This document shows, piece after piece, positions 1,103 through 35,351 of a stretch of 64,000 nt of DNA (its first letter is position 1; each line of letters starts with the position of its first letter). Source of the DNA: Elusimicrobiota bacterium (GTDB lineage: Bacteria; Elusimicrobiota; Elusimicrobia; UBA1565); the NCBI GenBank assembly GCA_016196755.1, contig JACPXC010000059.1, positions 1-64,000 of the forward strand. Direction: 5' to 3'. A program made the position numbers and the translations under genes. The notes under the pieces were generated by a model. It ran no database searches. It was not told where the DNA came from and worked only from the letters and a program-made list of their open reading frames with translations.

Positions 1103-1437
1103 TGAGAACTCCTCTCGCGCTGTTGTGCGGTCTCGCGCATATGCGAGCCGCACGGCGCGGCCTGGGAAAGGGGGGGATCCTCGACGAGCCCTCCTAACCC
1201 TTCGTTCCCCGCCGAAGCCCCTCGACCCCCCCGAACTTCACCGGGCCGCGTTCTCTCCTTAGCGCGTGTCCTTGCCGGCCCTGCGGGGCCAGCTCGCCGC
1301 GCCGGACCCTCGTCCCCTTCGGCCGTTCCCCAGGACGTTCCCTCGCCGGCCCCGCCGCAGCTCGGCGTGGGCGTTGGGGTACCGCGGGGGACAAAAACAA
1401 AAGAAAGAGCCCGCAGGAGAAGCAAAGCATCCCTCAT
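1099..1437 (-). CDS. Possible small Pro/Gly/Arg-rich exported protein
   Basis: A candidate 112-residue frame starting MRDALLLLRALSFVFV, which resembles a signal sequence, followed by low-complexity Pro/Gly/Arg/Glu-rich sequence with no recognisable domain. Support: a GAGGAG motif seven bases before the ATG, a good promoter about 95 bases upstream, and a stop that overlaps the next gene's ATG (ATGA). Against: the composition is what random GC-rich DNA gives, a second leftward frame (start 1430) also begins with a hydrophobic run, and the inverted repeat 1291-1321 lies inside. It may be a frameshifted remnant or a leader region. Confidence 0.33.
   Translation of the reverse strand: MRDALLLLRALSFVFVPRGTPTPTPSCGGAGEGTSWGTAEGDEGPARRAGPAGPARTRAKERTRPGEVRGGRGASAGNEGLGGLVEDPPLSQAAPCGSHMRETAQQRERSSQ
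1291..1321 (+). repeat. 31-bp inverted repeat, copy 2
   Basis: Matches the reverse complement of 1-31 with two mismatches. No transposase lies between the copies. Confidence 0.6.
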
Positions 1438-1530
1438 GAAAGCTCCTCGTCCGACGTGCACATCCGCTCGCCTCTTCCCGCCTGTTCTTGGCGCCTGCCC
1501 AACGCCCGAGTCACCCAGCCGCTGTCGGCG

Positions 1531-1558
1531 AGTATAAGCCGCAACCTCCCCCTGTCAA
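1531..1558 (-). promoter_or_regulatory. Sigma-70-like promoter for the left-edge operon
   Basis: Leftward TTGACA (1558-1553), 16-base spacer, TATACT (1536-1531). Transcription would start near 1525 and run into the exported-protein genes at 1437, 1102 and 640. Confidence 0.6.
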
Positions 1559-1601
1559 TGACAGCGGGTGTCACATTGCCGAACTACCTACGCCCCCGCC
1601 G

Positions 1602-2324
1602 TTAAAGGTCCAGCCGGAGGCCTTTCCCGCGCACGGTCACGAGAATCCTGCGCAGCGTCGTCGGCAGTTTGCGCTTGAAGCGGGCGATCACCTGGTTCAG
1701 AAGCGTGTTGCTCGATTCGCTGGCCCCCGGCTCAAGCAGCAGCAGCTTCGCCTGCGTACGCCCTACGCCGGCCGCGCCGGCCGCGGCCAACTGGTACACG
1801 AAGTCGACCTCCCGTTCCGTGAGCGGCCGACTGGTTCGGCCGCCATGGAGCAGCCGCCCGTCGCGACGCCTGTACATCAGGCCAGGTCCGACATGATCCC
1901 AACCGGCGTGGTTGATCGCCTGCTGAACGAGGACGTCGACCCCCTGCAGGCCCTTCACGATGACTTCAGCCACCAAACCCGACAACAGTCCGGCCTCGAT
2001 CCCCCGACCCGCGTCGGCGGTCCAGAGGAGCACGGGCGGGCGATGGGGACCGAAGGCCGCCCTGAGCTTGGCCGCCAGCATGTCGCCGGAATCCCCCGGC
2101 ATGTGCCGGTCCAAAACGACGACGTCGGGCGTGCCGGCCCCGAGCCGTTCGAACAGAAGCCGCGGGTCGCTCAGCCCCTCGACCGCGAAGCCCGCCGCGG
2201 TCAGGGCGATGCAGGCGAGCTCCAGGCATTCTTGGTCGTCGTCGACCACCAGGACGCGCCCGAGACCCGGCACGCGGGTCGGTACGGTCAAAGCACGGCG
2301 CGAGGGAGCGGATTGGTCTTCCAT
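1602..2324 (-). CDS. Two-component response regulator (receiver + winged helix)
   Basis: A 240-residue regulator. The receiver domain (about residues 22-130) has the acidic cluster D28-D30, phospho-acceptor D72 in VVVLDRHMPG, T102 and K124 in VIVKG. The C-terminal 75 residues (from LTEREVDFVYQL to GKGLRLDL) fit an OmpR/PhoB-type winged helix, so it probably binds DNA when phosphorylated. No partner kinase gene is adjacent. Its ATG lies inside the 3' end of the vapC gene (37-base overlap), so it may be transcribed with the toxin-antitoxin pair, an unusual partnership. Confidence 0.85.
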   Translation of the reverse strand: MEDQSAPSRRALTVPTRVPGLGRVLVVDDDQECLELACIALTAAGFAVEGLSDPRLLFERLGAGTPDVVVLDRHMPGDSGDMLAAKLRAAFGPHRPPVLLWTADAGRGIEAGLLSGLVAEVIVKGLQGVDVLVQQAINHAGWDHVGPGLMYRRRDGRLLHGGRTSRPLTEREVDFVYQLAAAGAAGVGRTQAKLLLLEPGASESSNTLLNQVIARFKRKLPTTLRRILVTVRGKGLRLDL

Positions 2325-2740
2325 TTCGCTCGTTCAGTCCCGGGGAAAAGGGTGAACCCGGCCAAGCCGAAATGGCGGTCGAATGTGAACGCGCGCCTGA
2401 CACGATAGCGGCGCATCAAGGCGAACGAGACCGCGTCGGTGAAACCCACTCCCGCGTCGGCGAACTTCTCATAGAGCGCCAGCGCCGCGCGCTCGTCGTC
2501 GGCATCGGGACGCAGGACGGAAAGGACCTTGGACTCGAGGACGCCGCGGGCCTTGGAGGCCGCGAAAGTCGCGCCCGCTCGCCGACCGACGAAGGTGACG
2601 ACCTCGTCAAGTACAAAGTTGCTGGTGCAGAGGCGCCCTCCCTCTTCCTTAATTACCCCCAACGCCTTCGTCGCCGCGCCATGCTGGCCGTCCTGGGTCA
2701 GCCAGAGGGCGATGAAGGCCCCGGAGTCCAGAAAGGTCAC
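2288..2740 (-). CDS. vapC: VapC-type PIN-domain toxin
   Basis: A 150-residue PIN-domain protein; such toxins are usually Mg-dependent RNases. The conserved acidic residues are visible: D5 in FLDSGAFIALW, D45/E46 in FVLDEVV, D102 in GFTDAVSFALMRR, and D121 in FTFDRHF. The start is a GTG whose TG forms the antitoxin's TGA stop (GTGA overlap), the usual coupling of VapBC pairs. The 3' end overlaps the response-regulator start. The substrate RNA cannot be inferred. Confidence 0.85.
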   Translation of the reverse strand: MTFLDSGAFIALWLTQDGQHGAATKALGVIKEEGGRLCTSNFVLDEVVTFVGRRAGATFAASKARGVLESKVLSVLRPDADDERAALALYEKFADAGVGFTDAVSFALMRRYRVRRAFTFDRHFGLAGFTLFPGTERAKWKTNPLPRAVL

Positions 2741-26534: not shown

Positions 26535-28130
26535 TCAAGCGCCTTTTGTCAAGACCGTCAACGCGCCCTCCGCGGCTTTGATCCCGCGGTACTGCGCCTC
26601 TTCGAAGAGCGAGAAGCCCGACAGGTCGGAGTGCCCGAAGTGGATGCGCCCGCGCGGCCGCAAGGCCGCCAGCCGCTCTTTCCCGAACATGAACCCCGGC
26701 GCGGGCCGGATCATCCCATGGCCCCATGTCCAGACGTCCAGACGTCTGACGCTGGAAGAGACCCCCGGCAGGGCGCGCTCCAGGTCATCGAGCACACGGT
26801 CGCGGTGAGCCGCCCACGGCGTCTTCTCCAGAGAAGCTCTCTGCGCCGCCGGCTCGCCGTCGGCGTAGGCATGATAGTGCGTCCACACGGTGCTCCGTCC
26901 ACGCGGCCCCATCTTCTGGTGCGTGGCCACGACGTAGCCGAGCGACTCGCCCTTGTAGAAGACGTTGTCCCAGGCCGGCTCCGCGCCGATGCCGCTCGGC
27001 GGATCCTCGAGAGTCAGGTTGCTCACGGTCCAGGGGGCATATTGGAACGCCGCGCTGACCCCGAGTCCGGCGACGACGCGCGCCGCCACGAAACGCGGCA
27101 GAGCGATCACGGCCGACTTAGCCGTCACACGGGTCACGGAACCCGTATCGACGTCCATAAGATCGGCCTCGACGCCCGAGCGGGTCTCTTCGACCCGGAT
27201 GACCAGCACGCCGGTCTTGAGCCGTTGCTCGAGAGGCTCCGCCAGCCTTTTCACCAGCCAGCCGTTCCCCTCCGGCCAGGTCAGGACCGAGTCGTCGGCC
27301 CCGCGCGCGGCGAAGTAGTGGATGCCGGCCCAGGCCGAGGTCGACTCGAGGCGCGCGCCGAAGTCGTCGCGGCAGGCGTAGTCGGCGTACCAGCGGATGC
27401 GCTCCCCCGTGAAGCCCTCGCGCGTCAGCCAATCGCCGAAAGAGAGGGCGTCCAGCGCCAGGAGCTCAGGGTCGCTCGAGGAGCGCACCATGGGGACGGC
27501 GAACGCCGGACGGCCGTCCTTGGTCTTGAGGCGCCTAAACGACTCCATGCGCGCCTCGAACCGGCCGCGCTCCTCCTCCTCGACGGAGCTAATCCCGACG
27601 CTCGGGTAGAGCCCGCTCTCCCAGCGGCCATGCGAGAAGATGCGCTCCTCGGGGTCGTGGCAGAGCCAGCGCTCATCGAAGACCGGACGGCCGGCGGCGT
27701 CGCTTCCGGTGACGACGCCGTATTCTTTGAGGAGCTCGACGACGGCGTTCGAGCCGGCGTCCGGCAGCGGGAGATAATGCGCGCCCCAAGGGTAGGCGCT
27801 GACCGGACCCTCCCCCCAGCGCGCGTTGCCGCCGGCCTGCGGCTCGAGCTCCGTGACGAGGAAGTCCTCGACTCCGGCCTGACGCAGGCGCCGCGCGGCG
27901 GAAAGCCCCGCGGCGCCGCCGCCGGCGATCAGGACTGCGCTCTTTCGGAAAGCGGACGGAGCGGGAAGCGAGCCGGCGCGCAGCTTGTGGCCGGCCGTCT
28001 TGTTGGGACCGAGGAGGGAGCCCTCTATATGGCCGCGCGCGTCGCGCCACGGCCATACCGCGGCGCCCACCGCGGCGGCGCCGGCGGCCAGGAGCGCCCG
28101 CCGCGTCAGTCGGGGGCTATCTTGCGCCAT
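26535..28130 (-). CDS. Tat-exported FAD-dependent amine-oxidase-like oxidoreductase
   Basis: A 531-residue flavoprotein. The N-terminus TRRALLAAG (R10-R11) plus hydrophobic region is a twin-arginine signal, so it is probably folded with FAD and exported. The dinucleotide fold is GGGAAG (70-75) with acidic E94 in TELEPQAGG; the C-terminal FAD motif is RIHFGHSDLSGFSLFEEAQYRG. The family includes polyamine and monoamine oxidases, but the substrate is not known here. The start at 28130 is chosen for the Tat motif; it overlaps the upstream spermidine-synthase-like gene by 25 bases. Last gene of the eight-gene operon. Confidence 0.82.
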   Translation of the reverse strand: MAQDSPRLTRRALLAAGAAAVGAAVWPWRDARGHIEGSLLGPNKTAGHKLRAGSLPAPSAFRKSAVLIAGGGAAGLSAARRLRQAGVEDFLVTELEPQAGGNARWGEGPVSAYPWGAHYLPLPDAGSNAVVELLKEYGVVTGSDAAGRPVFDERWLCHDPEERIFSHGRWESGLYPSVGISSVEEEERGRFEARMESFRRLKTKDGRPAFAVPMVRSSSDPELLALDALSFGDWLTREGFTGERIRWYADYACRDDFGARLESTSAWAGIHYFAARGADDSVLTWPEGNGWLVKRLAEPLEQRLKTGVLVIRVEETRSGVEADLMDVDTGSVTRVTAKSAVIALPRFVAARVVAGLGVSAAFQYAPWTVSNLTLEDPPSGIGAEPAWDNVFYKGESLGYVVATHQKMGPRGRSTVWTHYHAYADGEPAAQRASLEKTPWAAHRDRVLDDLERALPGVSSSVRRLDVWTWGHGMIRPAPGFMFGKERLAALRPRGRIHFGHSDLSGFSLFEEAQYRGIKAAEGALTVLTKGA

Positions 28131-29605
28131 TCCGACTCGTAGTAGCGCACCAGGGACTGCGTGCCGAGGCGGTTGGGTTCCGCGTCGAGGCGCGCCATGT
28201 CGGCCGGGAACTTGAACAGGCTGGGCGCTGTGGCGGCGTCGAGGAACTTGAGCCCCGGCGGGAACACCCTGGGCACCCGGTACGGGGAGGTCGCCCCGAG
28301 CACGTAGCCCCATTCCCCGAAGGACGGGACGTAGGCGTGGTAGGGATGGGTGTCAAAGCCCGCCTCGCGCATCGTGCGCTCCACGCACCAGAACGAACGC
28401 CGCGCAAAAAGCGGCGAGGTGGCCTGGACCACCAGCGAGCCGCCGGGAGCCAGTCGCCGGCGAGCCATCGTAAAGAAGGTCTCGGAGTAGAGCTTGCCGA
28501 TCGAGTAGTTCGAAGGGTCCGGAAAGTCCGCCACCATGAAGTCGAAGGGGCCCTCGTTGTCCTCCAGCCATTGGAAAGCGTCGGCGTTGACGATCGTGAC
28601 CTTGGGCGAGCGCAGGGCGCCGGCGTTTAGGCTGGCAAGGGCGTCGTTGTCGCGGAACAGGCGCGTCATCTCGGGGTCGAGGTCGACTAAGGTCACCGAC
28701 CCGACCCGCGGGTCCTTGAGGATCTCGCGCACCGCCATCCCGTCGCCGCCGCCCATGACGAGGACCCTCTCCGGCGCGCGGAGGGCTCCCAAGCCCGGAT
28801 GGACCAGCGCCTCGTGGTAGCGGTACTCGTCGCGCGAGGCGAACTGCAGGTGGCCGTTGAGGAAAAGGCGCATGTCGTCCTTCCAGCGGGTGAGGACGAT
28901 GCGCTGGTAGCCGCTGGAGCGCGCCAGCACCACCTCGTCCGAGTAGAGCCCCGCCTCCGCAAACGAGGTGATCTCGCCCGAGAAGACCAGCCCCGCCACA
29001 AGCGCCGCCAGGGCTGCCAGGCACTGACCGCGCAGGGAGTCGCGTCCCGGCAGCTGCTCGCGAAAGACGTGGACGCCCCAGAGCCCCACCGCGGCGTTGG
29101 CGATGCCGAAGACGAAGCTCGTGGCCAACAGCCCCAGCTTCGGGATGAGGACCAGCGGGAACAGGACCGAGGCCACCAGCGCCCCCGCGTAGTCGAGGGC
29201 CAGGACCTGCCCGACCAGGTCCTTGAACTGGAGCCGCTCCTTGAGCAGGCGCATGAGCAGGGGGATCTCCATGCCCACCAGCGCCCCGATGGCGGCCACG
29301 ACGAGGTAGAGCAGGATCCGGAACCCCGCCACGTGGGGGAAGGCGGCAAACAGCAGGGCCGCCGAGAACCCGCCCGTGACGCCGAGCAGGGCCTCGATCT
29401 GGATGAAGCGCGCCGCCAGGCCCCGGCCGATGAAGCGCGAGAGCCAGGAGCCCACCCCCATCGCGCAGAGGTAGGTCCCGATCACCGTCGAGAACTGCAG
29501 GACGCTGTCGCCCAGCAGATAGCTCGCCAAGGCGCCGGCCACGAGCTCGTAGACGAGCCCGCAGACGGCGATGACGACGATGGAGGCGTAGAGCGCCAGC
29601 GTCAC
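28106..29605 (-). CDS. Membrane spermidine-synthase-like protein
   Basis: A 499-residue protein: seven or so membrane spans (residues about 1-215), then a spermidine-synthase/aminopropyltransferase fold. Motifs include GYQRIVLTRW, the SAM/dcSAM site VMGGGDGMAVREIL, acidic VDLDPEM, NADAFQWL and DFPDPSNYSIGKLYS. It therefore belongs to the polyamine aminopropyltransferase group with membrane N-terminus. The start is set at GTG 29605, since the longer frame overlaps DUF350 with unlike sequence. It may aminopropylate a membrane or envelope substrate; that is inference from the operon. Confidence 0.82.
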   Translation of the reverse strand: MTLALYASIVVIAVCGLVYELVAGALASYLLGDSVLQFSTVIGTYLCAMGVGSWLSRFIGRGLAARFIQIEALLGVTGGFSAALLFAAFPHVAGFRILLYLVVAAIGALVGMEIPLLMRLLKERLQFKDLVGQVLALDYAGALVASVLFPLVLIPKLGLLATSFVFGIANAAVGLWGVHVFREQLPGRDSLRGQCLAALAALVAGLVFSGEITSFAEAGLYSDEVVLARSSGYQRIVLTRWKDDMRLFLNGHLQFASRDEYRYHEALVHPGLGALRAPERVLVMGGGDGMAVREILKDPRVGSVTLVDLDPEMTRLFRDNDALASLNAGALRSPKVTIVNADAFQWLEDNEGPFDFMVADFPDPSNYSIGKLYSETFFTMARRRLAPGGSLVVQATSPLFARRSFWCVERTMREAGFDTHPYHAYVPSFGEWGYVLGATSPYRVPRVFPPGLKFLDAATAPSLFKFPADMARLDAEPNRLGTQSLVRYYESEWRKIAPD

Positions 29606-29610
29606 GGTCG

Positions 29611-29847
29611 CTAGCCCGAGATCGCGGCCGCGATGATGAGGGCCAAGGCCAGCGTACCGGCGCCGACCACGGTCGCCAGGGCGCGGTTCTGCTTCTCGAT
29701 GAGCTCGCGCCAAAGGTCGTAGGGCGTGAGCTTGTCGACCACGAGGAAGGCGGCCGCAAAGACCACGGTACCTAGGAGCGAATAGACGACGGCGGCGGCG
29801 AGGTGGTTCGGGTCGAGGACGGTGCGCATGGAGGCCTCCGGATTCAT
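29611..29847 (-). CDS. DUF350 small membrane protein
   Basis: A 78-residue protein with two membrane spans (about residues 15-37 and 58-76) separated by a polar loop LTPYDLWRELIEKQNRA, the DUF350 (YjfL-like) pattern. DUF350 proteins often stand next to DUF4178 and spermidine-synthase-like genes. The ATG overlaps the upstream stop (ATGA). The role is probably structural or channel-like; unproven. Confidence 0.8.
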   Translation of the reverse strand: MNPEASMRTVLDPNHLAAAVVYSLLGTVVFAAAFLVVDKLTPYDLWRELIEKQNRALATVVGAGTLALALIIAAAISG

Positions 29848-30026
29848 TTTCCTGTATGGGTGCGATAGTGATATTGGTAGTGCGAACGATACGAACCGGG
29901 GTTGCTGCGCACGCTCCTGGGCACGGACTTCACCTCGTCGGTGCCGGTGAAGGTGAACCCGAACAGGCAGGCCCAGCCCAGCCAGCCTAGCACAGCCAAC
30001 GCCCAGAGCGGGTACCAGCGCTTCAT
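29844..30026 (-). CDS. Small single-TM protein (60 residues)
   Basis: A 60-residue protein beginning MKRWYPLWALAVLGWLGWACLF, one transmembrane span, then a Ser/Tyr/His-rich tail ending YRTHTGK. It joins its neighbours by 4-base ATGA overlaps on both sides, which is the main evidence that it is real. The Tyr/His tail could bind metal or membrane surfaces. No family recognised. Confidence 0.7.
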   Translation of the reverse strand: MKRWYPLWALAVLGWLGWACLFGFTFTGTDEVKSVPRSVRSNPGSYRSHYQYHYRTHTGK

Positions 30027-31363
30027 TCGTCGTCGTCCTCGGAGGTGACCATCGGGTGGTCGCTCTCGGCCCAGCGCGCCATCTCGAAGGAACGGCGGCG
30101 CAGGTAGACCCAGGCGAAGGGCAGGAGCAGGAACGCCCAAGCCCACGCCAGATGGTCCGGGCGCGGATGGTCCCACATCACCTGGACGTTGTAGCCGACG
30201 CCCCCGGTCGGGACCTCGGGGTCGATGACCAGGTAGTAGCGCCCGGGCGGCACGCGCGAAAGATAGGCGACGTCGCTCTGAGAGCCCTCGCTCCAGCTCT
30301 CGCCGTCCTCGCGTCCCCAGTAGTAGCTGAGCTCGCGCTCGAAGTGAAGCGCGGCGTCGGTCTCGTCGTTGACCAGCGCCATGCGGAAGAAGGCCCAGGA
30401 GTTGCCGATGTTGGTGTCGAGGCGCACGCGCACCGAGGCCGGACGGCTCCCGTCGAACGTGAAGACCGGCGTCACGACCGCCTTCTCGGCCACGGCCGGG
30501 TCGGCCGTGAAGGTGCCCGTATAGACGACGCTGCGCTTGGAGAACATCATCGCGGCGACGAACACGGCCAGCGCCGCCGCCGCGGCCAGGCTCCCCCAGA
30601 GCCCGACGACCGACCAGGCCTCGTCGTGCGGGTTGGGCTGGGCCGGCGCCGCGGAGCGCCGGGCGGGCGGCTCGCCCTCGAGGCCGAAGCCCGCCCAGAC
30701 CTCGGAGGGCTCCAGGTAGACCCCGTGGGTCCAGGTGCGGTCCGAGCCGGTGCGCTCCTCGGAGAGCAAAAACGGCGGGGCGATGAAGTCGCGGGTCTGG
30801 GCCTCGTCGCCGACCCTGACGCGCCAGGGGAACTCGCCGAGCACGAAGCCGACCTTGGGCCAGCCGGTCTGGAAGTGCGCGTAGCTGCGCTCCAAGTGCT
30901 CGATGCGCGGCGACAGCGACTCGTCGGAATTGTTCTCGTAGGCCGAATCGCGCGGGTCGGCGGCGATACCCTCGAAGGCCTCCTTCACGCGCCGGGCCGG
31001 GGCCGCCGTCGAGGCGCCGGGCCGCGGCAGCGGCGGCGGAGCCTGGCTCGCGCCCTTGCCGATGAGGCTGTCGACCTTGAGCTCGGCGCGCAGCTTTTGG
31101 ACCTCGCCGGCGTCGAGCCACAATCCGCCGCAGGCCGGGCAGCGGTCGGCCGTGACGATGGTCCCGGCGGCCGCCCCGCGCACGAGCTGTTGGCCGTCGC
31201 GCGGGCAGAGGCGCTCGGTCGGCCCCTCGCCGGCGACGGCCACCGTCAGCGACATGTCGGCCAGGTCGTACCAGACCCCGTGGCAGGCCGGGCAGAAGTC
31301 GACCTCGGTGCCGTCCTCGAAGCGGCGGGTCTCGAGCGGGGCGCGGCAGGCGGGACAGTTCAC
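30023..31363 (-). CDS. Zinc-ribbon membrane protein with DUF4178-associated C-terminal region
   Basis: A 446-residue protein starting with GTG. Two TFIIB-type zinc ribbons are at the N-terminus (C3/C6...C24/C27 and C53...C75/C78). The middle region contains FVLGEFPWRVRVGDEAQTRDFIAPPFLLS and WTHGVYLEPSEVWAGFGL then QPNP, a pattern I associate with the end of DUF4178 proteins. Two transmembrane segments lie near residues 250-275 and 405-425. It overlaps the upstream gene by GTGA. The protein seems to be part of a DUF4178 machine divided over several genes; zinc ribbons may bind other subunits. Confidence 0.72.
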   Translation of the reverse strand: MNCPACRAPLETRRFEDGTEVDFCPACHGVWYDLADMSLTVAVAGEGPTERLCPRDGQQLVRGAAAGTIVTADRCPACGGLWLDAGEVQKLRAELKVDSLIGKGASQAPPPLPRPGASTAAPARRVKEAFEGIAADPRDSAYENNSDESLSPRIEHLERSYAHFQTGWPKVGFVLGEFPWRVRVGDEAQTRDFIAPPFLLSEERTGSDRTWTHGVYLEPSEVWAGFGLEGEPPARRSAAPAQPNPHDEAWSVVGLWGSLAAAAALAVFVAAMMFSKRSVVYTGTFTADPAVAEKAVVTPVFTFDGSRPASVRVRLDTNIGNSWAFFRMALVNDETDAALHFERELSYYWGREDGESWSEGSQSDVAYLSRVPPGRYYLVIDPEVPTGGVGYNVQVMWDHPRPDHLAWAWAFLLLPFAWVYLRRRSFEMARWAESDHPMVTSEDDDE

Positions 31364-31752
31364 GGCGGCGCCTTCCCCGGCGGCTCGGTCAGGGTCTCAT
31401 AGAACATCCAATGGCCGTCCGACTCGGTCAGCCAGCGAAAGCCCTTGAGGGGGTTGTGCAGGAGGTACTCGCCCCAGGCGTAGTCCACGCCGTAGTAGCG
31501 CACCGCGCGGCGCATGAAGCCGATGCACTCCCACTTCTCGCCGCGCAGGACCCCCCTGGTCCCGAGCCCGATGAGCGGAGTGAACGTCATGGCCGACGTG
31601 TAGCGCGAGAGCAGCTTGTGGGCGGGGTCCTGGGCGTCGGCCACCGAGCCGCAGAACTCGCAGGCCACCGCCTCGCTGCGCCCCGGGGCGCGCACGGTCA
31701 GCGGGGCGCCGCAGCCGGGACAGGGAAACGCCGCGGCCTGCGGCGCGCTCAC
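31360..31752 (-). CDS. DUF4178 protein with zinc ribbon
   Basis: A 130-residue protein starting with GTG. A zinc ribbon (CPGCGAP at C11/C14, CEFCGS at C31/C34) precedes a DUF4178 domain (LIGLGTRGVLRGEKWECIGFMRRAVRYYGVDYAWGEYLLHNPLKGFRWL). It overlaps both neighbours by four bases. Cellular role unknown. It probably acts with the second DUF4178 protein and the zinc-ribbon membrane protein. Confidence 0.75.
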   Translation of the reverse strand: MSAPQAAAFPCPGCGAPLTVRAPGRSEAVACEFCGSVADAQDPAHKLLSRYTSAMTFTPLIGLGTRGVLRGEKWECIGFMRRAVRYYGVDYAWGEYLLHNPLKGFRWLTESDGHWMFYETLTEPPGKAPP

Positions 31753-32378
31753 CAGCCCTCGGGCATGCGCAGGTTGGTCAGAGCCAGTTCCTCGGCCTTG
31801 ACGTAGCGGCCGAGAAACAGGAGCGGCTTCTCCTCGGAGTAGTCGAGCGTGGCGAAGCCCCCGCCCTCGGCGGCCAGGTCCGCCAGCGGCGCCTTCTCGC
31901 CCAGCGGCGGCCTAAACGGCAACTCGCCCTGCGCCGAGAGGTAGCTCGCCGTGCGCAGGTCGGCCACCTCGAAGCGCTGGCCCATGAGGGCCAGGCGCTT
32001 GCCGACCGCGAGCTCGGAGAAGGCCGGCAGGGGCTTGTCGGGCTCGCGGCGGAAGCTCACCGCATAGGTGCCCTGCGCCTCGCCGAGCCAGCCCTGGTCC
32101 TGGTTGTCGAAGAGCAGGAACCACTCGTTCCAGAGCCCATCGTCGAAGCGCATCTGCAGCCGGCCGGCCGCCGTGAACGGAACGCCCTGCCAGCGTCCCT
32201 CGGTGCCGACCTGGATCACGCTGCCGTCCTCGATGAGCGCGGCCGCCTTGCCGAGCGCCTCGAAGTCCAAGTCCTTGCGGAAGAGCTGGCTCTTGCAGTT
32301 GGGGCAGACGCTGAGCAGGGACACGCTCGAACGGAAAGTAACGGGCGCCCCGCAGGAGGGGCAGGCGGCTTCACGCAT
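31749..32378 (-). CDS. DUF4178 protein with N-terminal zinc ribbon
   Basis: A 209-residue protein: zinc ribbon CPSCGAP (C6/C9) with CPNCKS (C25/C28), then a DUF4178 domain centred on GSVIQVGTEGRWQGVPFTAAGRLQMRFDDGLWNEWFLLFDNQDQGWLGEAQG. It has no membrane segment. DUF4178 proteins recur with DUF350 and SpeE-like genes in other bacteria. It starts 8 bases inside the upstream membrane-protein gene, the usual tight spacing of this operon. Confidence 0.75.
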   Translation of the reverse strand: MREAACPSCGAPVTFRSSVSLLSVCPNCKSQLFRKDLDFEALGKAAALIEDGSVIQVGTEGRWQGVPFTAAGRLQMRFDDGLWNEWFLLFDNQDQGWLGEAQGTYAVSFRREPDKPLPAFSELAVGKRLALMGQRFEVADLRTASYLSAQGELPFRPPLGEKAPLADLAAEGGGFATLDYSEEKPLLFLGRYVKAEELALTNLRMPEGW

Positions 32379-33453
32379 GGGCGGGGGATTGTCCCTTTAG
32401 CGCCGGCCCTCGGTCAACGCCGAGCGCCCCCCGCAGGCCCGGGCTCGAGCCGTCGAGGCGCCAGATGTAGGCGTCGAGGACGTAGTGCGTGGCCTGCGGC
32501 AGGGCCAACAGCGGCACAAGCACGGCGAGCGCCGCCGCCCCGAGGCCCGGCTCGCCGAAGACGCTTAAGGCCGGGAACTGCGCGCCGTGCTCGCGCCAGA
32601 CGAGCAGGTCCCAGAGCCCCTCCTCCCCGTAGGCCAAGGCCAGCGGCAGGAGCAGGAAGAGCGCCCCCCAGACCGCCGCGGGCGCGGCGCGCAGGGGCCG
32701 CGGGCGCGCGGCGCTGACCCAGACCAAGGCGAAGTACGGCGCGCCATGGGCGACGACGTTGGTCAGCGTGAAGGCCAGGTCCGAGTCGCAGGCGACGATG
32801 CCGGTCCACCAGGCCGCGGCCGTGCCGAGAACGACGCCGAGCCGGCCTGGATGGGAGGGACGGGCGCGGACCGCTTGGCGCAGGACCCAAGCGGCGAGGA
32901 TCCCCGCGTACAGCAGGCCGGCCGGCGCGGCCAAGCCGGCGGGAAGGCGCAGGAAGTCGCCGGCCACGAACCACTCGAAAGGACGCGGGGTGGCATGCCA
33001 ATAGACCAGCGGGTAGAGCATCCCGCCGTAGAGCGCGGCCCGGTCGAGGAGGTCGTCGGCACGCGGGGCGGGCCCTTCCAAACGCTGATAGAGTCGCAAG
33101 AACCCATACTGCTGGCGCACGAAATGGAATACCGCCAGGTAGGCCAGGACCCGCCAAAAGCCCAGCGGCCCGGTGAAGCGATAGAGCAGGGCCCCCGCCG
33201 CCCAACACAGCACCGGCACCCCGGCGTAGAGTCCCGGCCGGCGGCGCAGCTCCGCGCCGTCGAGATAGGTGCGCCAGAGCGAGGACCAGACGTGGGCCAC
33301 GTCGACGCCGACGACGAGGAAGAGCCAGGCCCAGGGCGGAACCTCGCCCGAGCGCAGGGCCGGAAAAAGCGCCACGGCTGCCGCTGCCGCGGCCGGCGGC
33401 CCGACGATGAAGGTCAGGTCGAAGCCGCGCGAGCGGACCCACGGATACGCCAT
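32371..33453 (-). CDS. Polytopic membrane protein with His motifs, first gene of the operon
   Basis: A 360-residue protein with about nine hydrophobic segments. Conserved-looking motifs are VGVDVAHVWSSLWRTYLD, FHFVRQQYGFLRLY and, near the C-terminus, LPQATHYVLDAYIWRLDG; the spaced histidines could form a metal site, as in membrane hydroxylases or desaturases, but no family is assigned. The start at 33453 has TACAAT exactly six bases upstream and no Shine-Dalgarno, so the whole eight-gene message probably begins at its start codon. Confidence 0.7.
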   Translation of the reverse strand: MAYPWVRSRGFDLTFIVGPPAAAAAAVALFPALRSGEVPPWAWLFLVVGVDVAHVWSSLWRTYLDGAELRRRPGLYAGVPVLCWAAGALLYRFTGPLGFWRVLAYLAVFHFVRQQYGFLRLYQRLEGPAPRADDLLDRAALYGGMLYPLVYWHATPRPFEWFVAGDFLRLPAGLAAPAGLLYAGILAAWVLRQAVRARPSHPGRLGVVLGTAAAWWTGIVACDSDLAFTLTNVVAHGAPYFALVWVSAARPRPLRAAPAAVWGALFLLLPLALAYGEEGLWDLLVWREHGAQFPALSVFGEPGLGAAALAVLVPLLALPQATHYVLDAYIWRLDGSSPGLRGALGVDRGPALKGQSPAHA

Positions 33454-33465
33454 GGGCCCATTGTA
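33454..33465 (-). promoter_or_regulatory. -10 box of the eight-gene operon, six bases from start
   Basis: Leftward GGC TACAAT (33465-33460) then six bases to the ATG at 33453. The divergent gene at 33525 has the same design 60 bases away. Confidence 0.5.
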
Positions 33466-33512
33466 GCCCAAAGCCTAGGCCCCTAGGCCCAACCACCTTC
33501 GGGGGAGCCCGC

Positions 33513-33524: not shown

Positions 33525-35351
33525 ATGCGGGTGGTGGCAGCGGTCTTGAGCCTGATTTTGGGCGCCTCCGGAGCCTCGGCAGCCGGCCGGGCAGTGGCGC
33601 CCGTCGTCGTGCCGGTGGCGCCGGGCGGCGGCGCCTCGCTGGCCGCCCCCGTGGCGCCGACCCTGGCGCCGATCACACCGGCGCTGACCCTGGCCGCCCC
33701 CTCCGCCCAGCCCACACTATCGGCCGTTGCCATGCCGACACCCGTCGCGCCGAATCCGGCTCCCCTCGCCGCGGCGGCAGTCCCCACAGCATTCGCCGCG
33801 CCGCGCGCCGCGCTCAACGCCGTGGCCCAGCCGCAGACGCCCGGCAACGAGCCCGAAAAACAGACCCTGCTGCAGACCCTGTCCGCTCCGGCTGCCGACC
33901 TCTCGGGCGGACTCGGCGACGCTTCCGGCGCCGCGCGGTCGGACTTCGAGTCGCGCGCCCAACTAGGCCGCTCTGCCGGTGGAGCCGGCGCCGTCGAGAC
34001 CGGCGGCGCCCAGGTCAGAGGCCGCTCGCTCCGCCTCCTCCAGCCCGCCCAGGCCAAGCCGGCCCCCGCCGCGGCCAAGCCCGCGGCCCGGCCGCTAGAC
34101 GCCGACGGCTCGCGGATGTCCGCCGTCCTGCGCGAGGTCTCCGGCCGCGCCGCCGTCGAGCCGCGCACCCTCGACTTCATCCCCTCCCCGGCCAGCCTTC
34201 GCGCGATGTCGACGCTCGACACCGAGGTGTTCCTCTACCGCGAGCGCGGCACCGGCGTCTGGCGGCTTACCGCCGGCGAGCCGGACGGCGTCTCGGGGGA
34301 CTTCGGCGACTACGACCTGGGCCTGCACAATCATCCCACCCGGCGCCTCGGCATGTATTCGGCGCACTCCGCCTACCCCTCGCCCACCGACCTGGTGACC
34401 GCCGCGGGCAAGGACGCCCGGGTCTTCGTCGTCTCCGAGGAGGGCGTCGTCGAGTGGAACTCCACGGTCCCCTTCCTCGACGAGCCGGGCCGCTACCTCG
34501 AGCGGGACGCGTCGGACGCCGACCAGAACGAGTGGCTGCGCCGCCTCCACGACGGGTCCTTCTGGCGCCGCCTGGTCATGAAGCTGACGTTCCCCTCCGG
34601 CTACCCGACCCTGGCCGGGTCGCTGGGCCTGGCGATGGAGCTCAAGCCCTGGAAGAAGGTCAGCCAGGAATGGCTCGAGTCCGGCACGGCCCCGCAGAGC
34701 GCGCAGACCTGGGAGCGACGCCTGGCCCCCGCCCTGGCCGAGGAGGCGGTCCTGGCCGCTGAGCGCGTCGGCGGCCGGGCCCTCGGCGCCGCGGAGCGCG
34801 CCGACGTGGTCCGCCGCACCCGCGTCATCGCGGTGGGCTGGGCCAAGACCCTCGTCAACGAGTTCGGGGTCATGGCCTCCTACCCGGACGGTGTGGCGCG
34901 GCCGGACCGCTCCATCGAGCTGACGATGAAGCCTCTGGCCGGCCTTCCCGATCCCGCGCTCTACTACCGGGTGCTGTTCGCGCATGAATACACCCATCGT
35001 CTCCAACACGAGGGCGACGTGACGACCCGCTGGGGCGTCGAGATCCCGGCGGTAGCCGTCGAACTGGTCCGCGCCGCGGAGCTGGTCGGCGTCTCGGCTC
35101 TGCGAAAGGGAGCAGTCCCGTTCATCACCCCGAACACGCTCAACGGGATGGACGACGGCCGCGGATGGGCGAAGAGCGGACGCTCCAACGACGCGGCCCT
35201 TTATCGTAGGGGAGCCCTGGCCGGCGCGGCGTTGGAGCTCGCCGCCCAGACCGGTCGGATGCAGGACGCCTGGGAGTTCGTCCGCCGGGTGTCCTCGGCC
35301 CGCAAGACCGAGAGCCCGGCCGCGGTCTACGCCGACATCGTCGGTCGCTAG
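33525..35351 (+). CDS. Exported protein with a JAMM-like site and a HExxH metallopeptidase domain
   Basis: A 608-residue protein. A signal peptide (LGASGASAAG) is followed by a long Ala/Pro/Val low-complexity stretch to about residue 195. Residues 260-290 read GLHNHPTRRLGMYSAHSAYPSPTDL, with H268, H270 and S286-x-x-D289, the metal-binding pattern of JAB/JAMM deubiquitinase-type domains. A second site HEYTH (H487, E488, H491) sits in FAHEYTHRLQHEGD, with E506 or E513 as possible third ligand. A protein with both sites is unusual. The function is probably proteolytic, outside the cytoplasm. Its stop touches the convergent TerC gene. Confidence 0.72.
   Translation: MRVVAAVLSLILGASGASAAGRAVAPVVVPVAPGGGASLAAPVAPTLAPITPALTLAAPSAQPTLSAVAMPTPVAPNPAPLAAAAVPTAFAAPRAALNAVAQPQTPGNEPEKQTLLQTLSAPAADLSGGLGDASGAARSDFESRAQLGRSAGGAGAVETGGAQVRGRSLRLLQPAQAKPAPAAAKPAARPLDADGSRMSAVLREVSGRAAVEPRTLDFIPSPASLRAMSTLDTEVFLYRERGTGVWRLTAGEPDGVSGDFGDYDLGLHNHPTRRLGMYSAHSAYPSPTDLVTAAGKDARVFVVSEEGVVEWNSTVPFLDEPGRYLERDASDADQNEWLRRLHDGSFWRRLVMKLTFPSGYPTLAGSLGLAMELKPWKKVSQEWLESGTAPQSAQTWERRLAPALAEEAVLAAERVGGRALGAAERADVVRRTRVIAVGWAKTLVNEFGVMASYPDGVARPDRSIELTMKPLAGLPDPALYYRVLFAHEYTHRLQHEGDVTTRWGVEIPAVAVELVRAAELVGVSALRKGAVPFITPNTLNGMDDGRGWAKSGRSNDAALYRRGALAGAALELAAQTGRMQDAWEFVRRVSSARKTESPAAVYADIVGR

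Follow-up and report, generated by a model that had tools for sequence, protein, structure and literature searches.

An exported-looking protein with two putative metal sites

The window – the whole stretch of 64,000 nucleotides that was analysed – carries an open reading frame at 33525-35351 on the plus strand that begins with ATG and encodes a protein of 608 amino acids in an Elusimicrobiota bacterium; all features of this protein given below lie on the same strand. By inspection, its N-terminus consists of MR, a hydrophobic core (Kyte-Doolittle 1.88 at residues 3-21) and an ASA/SAA-type cleavage motif: a signal-like arrangement from which we predict a Sec-type signal peptide at residues 1-20 (33525..33584). 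There follows, as read from the translation, an Ala/Pro-rich tether at residues 21-189 (33585..34091), a candidate JAMM-like core at residues 214-316 (34164..34472), an inter-domain region at residues 317-390 (34473..34694) and a gluzincin-like domain centred on the motif HEYTH at residues 391-608 (34695..35348). The inter-domain region, modelled mostly at low confidence, is also found in relatives with an intact JAMM domain.

The tether of 170 Ala/Pro-rich residues described in the first-pass annotation is present, but it is not featureless: residues 108-150 (33846..33974, ending in DFESRAQL) form a conserved module common to exported proteins (alignment A11, 8 sequences). The module, of about 43 residues, also precedes a CDO_I domain and a subtilase. 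The former is in L002, another exported-looking protein of the same genome, whose N-terminus is 56% identical to residues 1-171 of the window protein and whose later part matches the cysteine dioxygenase CDO_I; the carriers in two other genomes are of subtilase type, one by Pfam (L107) and one by look (L108). The module appears to be a front end shared by proteins that Elusimicrobiota export, and is possibly a sorting or anchoring element of this phylum.

The gene is neighboured by genes for TerC, acetate kinase, a spermine-synthase-like protein and DUF4178 proteins, among which neither a substrate nor a partner gene is apparent. Compared with the neighbours of the related gene L028 (VTT, a two-component system, a permease and MgtE), they suggest no common theme, and gene neighbourhood was set aside as a functional clue. 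The cluster at 26535-33471 on the minus strand of the window, which is conserved in part in the loci L029 and L030 of the same genus, comprises three DUF4178 proteins, of which one carries TFIIB-type zinc ribbons, together with the spermine-synthase-like protein, whose N-terminal part is hydrophobic, an FAD amine-oxidase-like protein and one polytopic-looking protein that Pfam does not match.

Conservation and fold of the JAMM-like domain

The motif HNHP...SxxD, reported from the first reading of the sequence, is indeed intact at residues 268-289: H268-N-H270-P (34326..34337) would provide metal ligands, and S286-P-T-D289 (34380..34391) the serine and the aspartate ligand. The upstream glutamate of a JAMM site was sought as a check, and a candidate is present: Glu234 (34224..34226), the proposed catalytic residue, lies 34 residues before H268 and is identical in 6/6 JAMM rows of alignment A5 and 8/8 of A3. 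The latter is an alignment of eight JAMM-bearing sequences – the window protein, L028, L038, L037, L035, L036, L056 and L055 – in which the other rows share 26-63% identity with the core of the window protein. Fourteen columns are invariant, including E234, H268, H270, S286 and D289 (hypergeometric probability 2.3e-5); the proline after HxH is variable (7/8), L035 having HSHV. The pattern HxHP-x(4,20)-SxxD appeared in 8 of 20,000 shuffles of the mature region of the window protein. The motif alone is thus unusual yet possible by chance, and its conservation is the stronger argument.

Searches of the whole window protein against Pfam and NCBIfam returned no family up to E 10; the cut-off of the Pfam Prok-JAB family (PF14464) was reached neither by the whole protein nor by six members of A1, a profile of the JAMM half, with nothing listed up to E 10. 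In profile comparisons, A3 scored 25.2 against 7 Prok-JABs (maximum of 60 shuffles 20.3), 30.0 against 8 RadC-like sequences (maximum of 60 shuffles 14.4) and, using hhalign, 37.8 against 25 diverse Prok-JABs (Prob 88.6, pairwise E 2.6e-6), where 100 column shuffles reached at most 18.1 and the reversed query 10.4. These 25 were hand-picked from the search loci, what was omitted being mostly near-duplicates and weak partial matches. The match is confident from HxHP..PSxxD through the helix to the next strand, and the strand bearing the glutamate is aligned loosely and with low confidence.

In the structural model of the window protein, pLDDT falls below 50 over model residues 83-112 and 114-138, within the JAMM domain (around protein residues 272-327). 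Its predicted order of elements – helix (33-39), E strand (46-51), strand, HxH strand (74-80), helix (98-104), strand, strand – is that of small JAMM proteins. The paralogue L056 is better modelled (mean pLDDT 84.0), and its JAMM part aligns to JAMM1 of P. furiosus (5ld9_B) with Z 5.1 and rmsd 3.6 over 96 aligned residues, a modest Z that by the tool's own note is common for unrelated folds. Among the best 50 VIA-align matches listed for L056, 5ld9 was the sole one aligning to the JAMM part; the absence of RadC, CSN5, RPN11 and others from the matches listed was not counted as evidence against. Foldseek gave nothing significant against the PDB with either model, profile searches of the PDB with the JAMM region gave no JAMM chain, and a PDB sequence search with the window protein gave nothing credible. 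A glucuronyl hydrolase (E 0.024) and IFT122 (E 0.46), the best PDB profile matches of the JAMM region, were partial and were judged to be chance.

Given that the window model is too poor around residues 272-327, the case for a JAB fold comes from the profile comparison and from the model of L056. Kinship of the first domain with the JAB family is supported by these profiles and models. The original proposal, an exported JAMM domain paired with a gluzincin-type site, holds in so far as the E/HxH/S/D set is complete, an HExxH domain is present and the protein looks exported, but the protein's own model cannot show the JAB fold.

The HEYTH domain

The second motif had likewise been described as intact, and H487-E-Y-T-H491 (34983..34997), a predicted zinc site, is found at residues 487-491; H, E and H are identical in 14/14 HEYTH rows of A5. 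A candidate third zinc ligand is Glu513 (35061..35063), which is likewise invariant (14/14), as are E496, E506 and E519; E513 lies 22 residues after H491, inside the next predicted helix (model residues 318-338). VIA-align of the window model against the PDB gave LTA4H as a match for this domain (Z 8.4, rmsd 4.6, 171 residues aligned), and the matches listed, from Z 8.4 to 7.0, are M1 aminopeptidases, thermolysin-like (M4) peptidases, reaching Z 7.6, and a single TFIID entry. A gluzincin (zincin) fold of the HEYTH domain is thus supported by the model.

A second pairing in reversed order

The JAMM-like domain is found in the company of an HExxH motif a second time in the same genome. The protein L056 (724-2049, plus strand; G000:C52:69825-71150) and its counterpart L055 from the same genus (1183-2514, minus strand) are both exported-looking and have the domain order reversed relative to the window protein, MFAHELEHARQ lying in the N-terminal half and the C-terminal half carrying a JAMM core (E, HNHP or HTHP, SSRD). 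Both are matched by profile A1 (E 2.8e-6 for L056, 1.2e-3 for L055); reciprocally, L056 as query finds the JAMM domain in G195 (2.9e-6). A third match of L056 in its own genome, L059 (E 0.037), is a frame that resembles an acyl-CoA carboxylase beta chain by inspection and was dismissed as chance. The best Foldseek match of L056 among viral models, a "minor capsid protein" (E 9.8e-4), has rmsd 24 over 569 columns and was not interpreted.

The HExxH domain of L056 and L055 appears, as far as profiles go, to belong to a different family from the HEYTH domain: profiles of the two types (A12 and A13) align over only 13 columns, at the motif. Its best fold matches are SjiH (Z 9.7) and the HExxH domain of ChlB (Z 9.5), the next match listed being at 6.0; these two are alpha-ketoglutarate HExxH oxygenases and not peptidases, enzymes of a kind that PMC12636437, in the passages that concern us, describes as formerly annotated as peptidases. 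There is also a weak match to DUF6782, a putative metallopeptidase family (PF20573; E 0.038 for L056 and 0.0091 for L055, below the cut-off), which does not match the window protein. Homologues of this HExxH domain without JAMM occur in L058, L066, L067 and L068. Different HExxH families and reversed order together mean that the JAMM domain seems to have been joined to exported HExxH enzymes at least twice. In L058 two adjacent genes (1-1357 and 1405-2265, plus strand; G000:C60) each encode an HExxH motif – HELRH with upstream hydrophobic segments, then HELEH – and neither has a JAMM domain.

JAMM in giant proteins

The same domain is found in two giant frames, both on the minus strand. In L035 (5850-20000; 4717 aa in the fetched stretch) it precedes GH15 and GGDEF domains. 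In L036 (1254-11495; 3414 aa) it stands directly before an ABC exporter: the JAMM domain, at residues 2212-2410, lies between a hydrophobic segment (2131-2149) and the first exporter segment (at 2454), with ABC_tran at 2787-2937. In peptidase-containing ABC transporters a C39 peptidase occupies the corresponding position. By the usual topology of ABC transporters this copy would be cytoplasmic, so that the JAMM clade would not always be extracytoplasmic. Elusimicrobiota are described as rich in huge proteins in the relevant passages of PMC11573180.

Distribution and loss

Whole-genome searches covered Elusimicrobiota, and beyond the phylum one pattern scan covered species genomes. Residues 191-608 of the window protein have matches in 19/340 Elusimicrobiota genomes at E 0.01, and the JAMM-half profile A1 in 10/340. 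The species-genome scan returned seven loci, six from Elusimicrobia/Elusimicrobiota and one from FW305_bin.15 ("bacterium"). Within this coverage, relatives came to light in Elusimicrobiota only. A mobile or phage origin was considered and rejected: relatives were absent from viral contigs (three queries), phages (JAMM core) and plasmids (window protein and L056), PADLOC gave 0 matches, and PHROGs gave one at E 0.54.

An intact JAMM domain with HEYTH behind it is seen in the window protein, L028, L038 and L037; the other intact copies are those of the giant frames and of L056 and L055. In L039, L040 and L044 the domain is eroded: first helix through last strand measures 65-66 residues (vs 93), the tether and the last JAMM strand are retained, and HxHP and SxxD are gone. 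That the two motifs vanish together indicates that the JAMM ligands are retained or lost jointly. In L039 and L040 HEYTH remains in frame, and the frame of L044 stops at the contig end. The HEYTH half is more widespread than the JAMM half, and is found without it in L029, L030 and L041. It is also found, in exported-looking proteins, ahead of a HAD phosphatase-like domain, identified as HAD by Pfam in L031 (5368-7197) and alike by sequence in L032 (5305-7353) and L042 (5634-7583).

In the loci L029 and L030 a short tether leads into the same peptidase, and both lie at the same genomic place as the window gene, with flanking genes that match. For L029 these are TerC (77%) and acetate kinase (82%); for L030 they are a DUF4178 gene (85%) and the spermine-synthase-like gene (80%); and both loci have a 72% match to the gene at 32374. 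In a tree of HEYTH domains these two group with the window protein (84/79, an open fork), and proteins with intact, eroded and absent JAMM domains are interleaved. The simplest reading of these sequence relationships is that JAMM and HEYTH were fused long ago and that JAMM was then lost repeatedly; alternatively, JAMM may have been gained in the lineage of the window protein.

What the two sites might do

The explanation towards which we lean, and which we hold to be somewhat probable, is that the window protein is an exported two-site metallo-hydrolase of Elusimicrobiota in which JAMM is an accessory second site. The signal-like N-terminus would direct export, and the tether would hold both sites near the envelope, where each would bind zinc and, outside the cytoplasm, split amide bonds. 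HEYTH would be the core peptidase, and JAMM an accessory hydrolase acting on the same class of substrate by cutting a bond that HEYTH cannot, perhaps an isopeptide or C-terminal amide in peptidoglycan cross-links or in a conjugate of a surface protein. Repeated loss of JAMM would then mean that only some lineages require the accessory cut. Outside the cytoplasm, the natural substrate of a JAMM would be an isopeptide or a C-terminal amide; peptidoglycan cross-links are the best-known such bonds there, and the data favour neither them nor surface proteins. A broader proposition, which we put forward tentatively as possible, is that Elusimicrobiota harbour a clade of JAMM isopeptidases that was fused on two or more occasions, and with opposite domain orders, to exported HExxH enzymes unrelated to each other, and in one case was set ahead of an ABC exporter.

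Several other accounts of the JAMM domain deserve consideration. It could be a processing domain that cuts its own polypeptide – the tether or the partner domain – thereby freeing or activating the enzyme next to it, or that cuts the cargo of a transporter. The copy directly before the ABC exporter, in a position comparable to that of C39, would suit such a role, as would the place of the window protein's domain between tether and peptidase; yet in L056 and L055 JAMM is C-terminal to the HExxH domain, the orthologues L029 and L030, which lack JAMM, keep the same peptidase, and no cleavage site is visible; we take a processing role to be rather unlikely. The loss or erosion of JAMM without loss of HEYTH would also be expected of a non-catalytic (MPN- or binding) domain that merely presents substrate to the HExxH site. 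Binding-only MPN- domains are usually without the catalytic-type residues, however, and five such residues are invariant in 8/8 sequences wherever the core is intact, so we regard this as quite unlikely. That HNHP...SPTD arose by chance, in an exported domain unrelated to JAMM, might be argued from the want of a curated family match and from the poor window model at JAMM, but the eightfold invariance, the shuffle controls, the order of secondary structure in the models of the window protein and L056, and the match of L056 to JAMM1 render it highly improbable.

The HExxH domains present a separate difficulty, for they could be iron- and alpha-ketoglutarate-dependent oxygenases, leaving JAMM as the sole hydrolase. 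The matches of L056 to SjiH and ChlB speak for this account, and passages of PMC12636437 relate that such enzymes were once called peptidases. The matches listed for the window protein are instead peptidases of the M1 and thermolysin-like kinds, apart from the TFIID entry, and an exported alpha-ketoglutarate enzyme would presumably find itself without cosubstrate outside the cytoplasm; we consider the account improbable. Finally, the protein might be secreted as a Tox-JAB-like effector or toxin for use against other cells. Tox-JAB-2/DUF4329, in the account of PMC3482391 as far as it treats these domains, is a secreted JAB with the same set of residues, and related genomes encode exported-looking stand-alone DUF4329 proteins. 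Against this, DUF4329 has no match in the source genome, the profile comparison did not exceed its shuffles (below), neither RHS nor an immunity-type partner was seen, and the HEYTH core is conserved and syntenic within the genus, unlike the variable tips of toxins. A toxin is the least probable of the readings considered here.

Relation to known systems

JAMM enzymes are read as peptidases of ubiquitin-like proteins inside cells. In common with Prok-JAB/Mec+-type JAMM proteins (PF14464) and RadC, the window protein has E, HxHP, S and D, a like order of strands and helix, and profile similarity above shuffles; it differs in looking exported, in its fusion to HExxH, in a longer stretch from HNHP to SxxD, in falling below every Pfam and NCBIfam threshold, and in that no ubiquitin-like partner is seen. 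With M1/M4 gluzincins (LTA4H, thermolysin) it shares HExxH, an invariant downstream glutamate and a fold match (Z 8.4 and 7.4, respectively); unlike them it gives no sequence match, has a HEYTH domain of about 220 residues and is fused to JAMM.

The first-pass annotation considered an exported JAMM domain unexpected. That view needs narrowing: secreted JABs and a fusion of JAB with a second peptidase have been described, whereas a description of the exported JAMM-HExxH pairing itself was not found in the open-licence literature searched. Passages of PMC3482391 describe two secreted types, Tox-JAB-1 and Tox-JAB-2/DUF4329, and state that prokaryotic JABs known earlier were intracellular. The phage tail protein TAPK, in the portion of PMC1779556 that deals with it, combines JAB with NlpC/P60 beside the ubiquitin-like TAPI. 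TAPK resembles the window protein as a JAB fused to a second peptidase; it differs in that the second peptidase is papain-like, that TAPI adjoins it and that it belongs to a phage tail assembly cluster. An NlpC/P60 second domain was not found in the window protein (no Pfam family up to E 10).

New here are the second pairing in the same genome, with reversed order and another HExxH domain, the presence of JAMM in giant proteins, once before an ABC exporter, and its repeated loss or erosion while HEYTH persists, in a JAMM-like clade that current family libraries miss. That JAMM and HExxH should have been joined twice raises the question of which extracytoplasmic amide or isopeptide bond needs an exported JAMM. 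Were a clade of JAMM isopeptidases borne out, these bacteria would have, outside the cytoplasm, a substrate of isopeptide type – cross-links of the cell wall or a surface-conjugated protein – that is cut by an enzyme with two metal sites. The window protein and L056 offer a small, testable pair.

The resemblance to Tox-JAB-2/DUF4329 (PF14220) extends to a secreted JAB with E, HxH, S and D (as given in part of PMC3482391); the window protein differs in having no toxin-type leader or partner. Kinship with DUF4329 was rejected: A3 scores 16.7 against nine DUF4329 sequences, not above the shuffle maximum of 18.8, and PF14220 has 0 matches in the source genome (G000). Among related genomes, 9/334 have a DUF4329 match, and several of the proteins evidently bear a signal sequence as well as the residues E, HTH and D. 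At the loci L095-L102, DUF4329 (Tox-JAB-2-like) stands alone in proteins of about 170-230 residues, several of which have a signal-like N-terminus, and in a related genome (L094; G230:C74) DUF4329 ends an RHS-repeat-like frame, an arrangement like that of polymorphic toxins.
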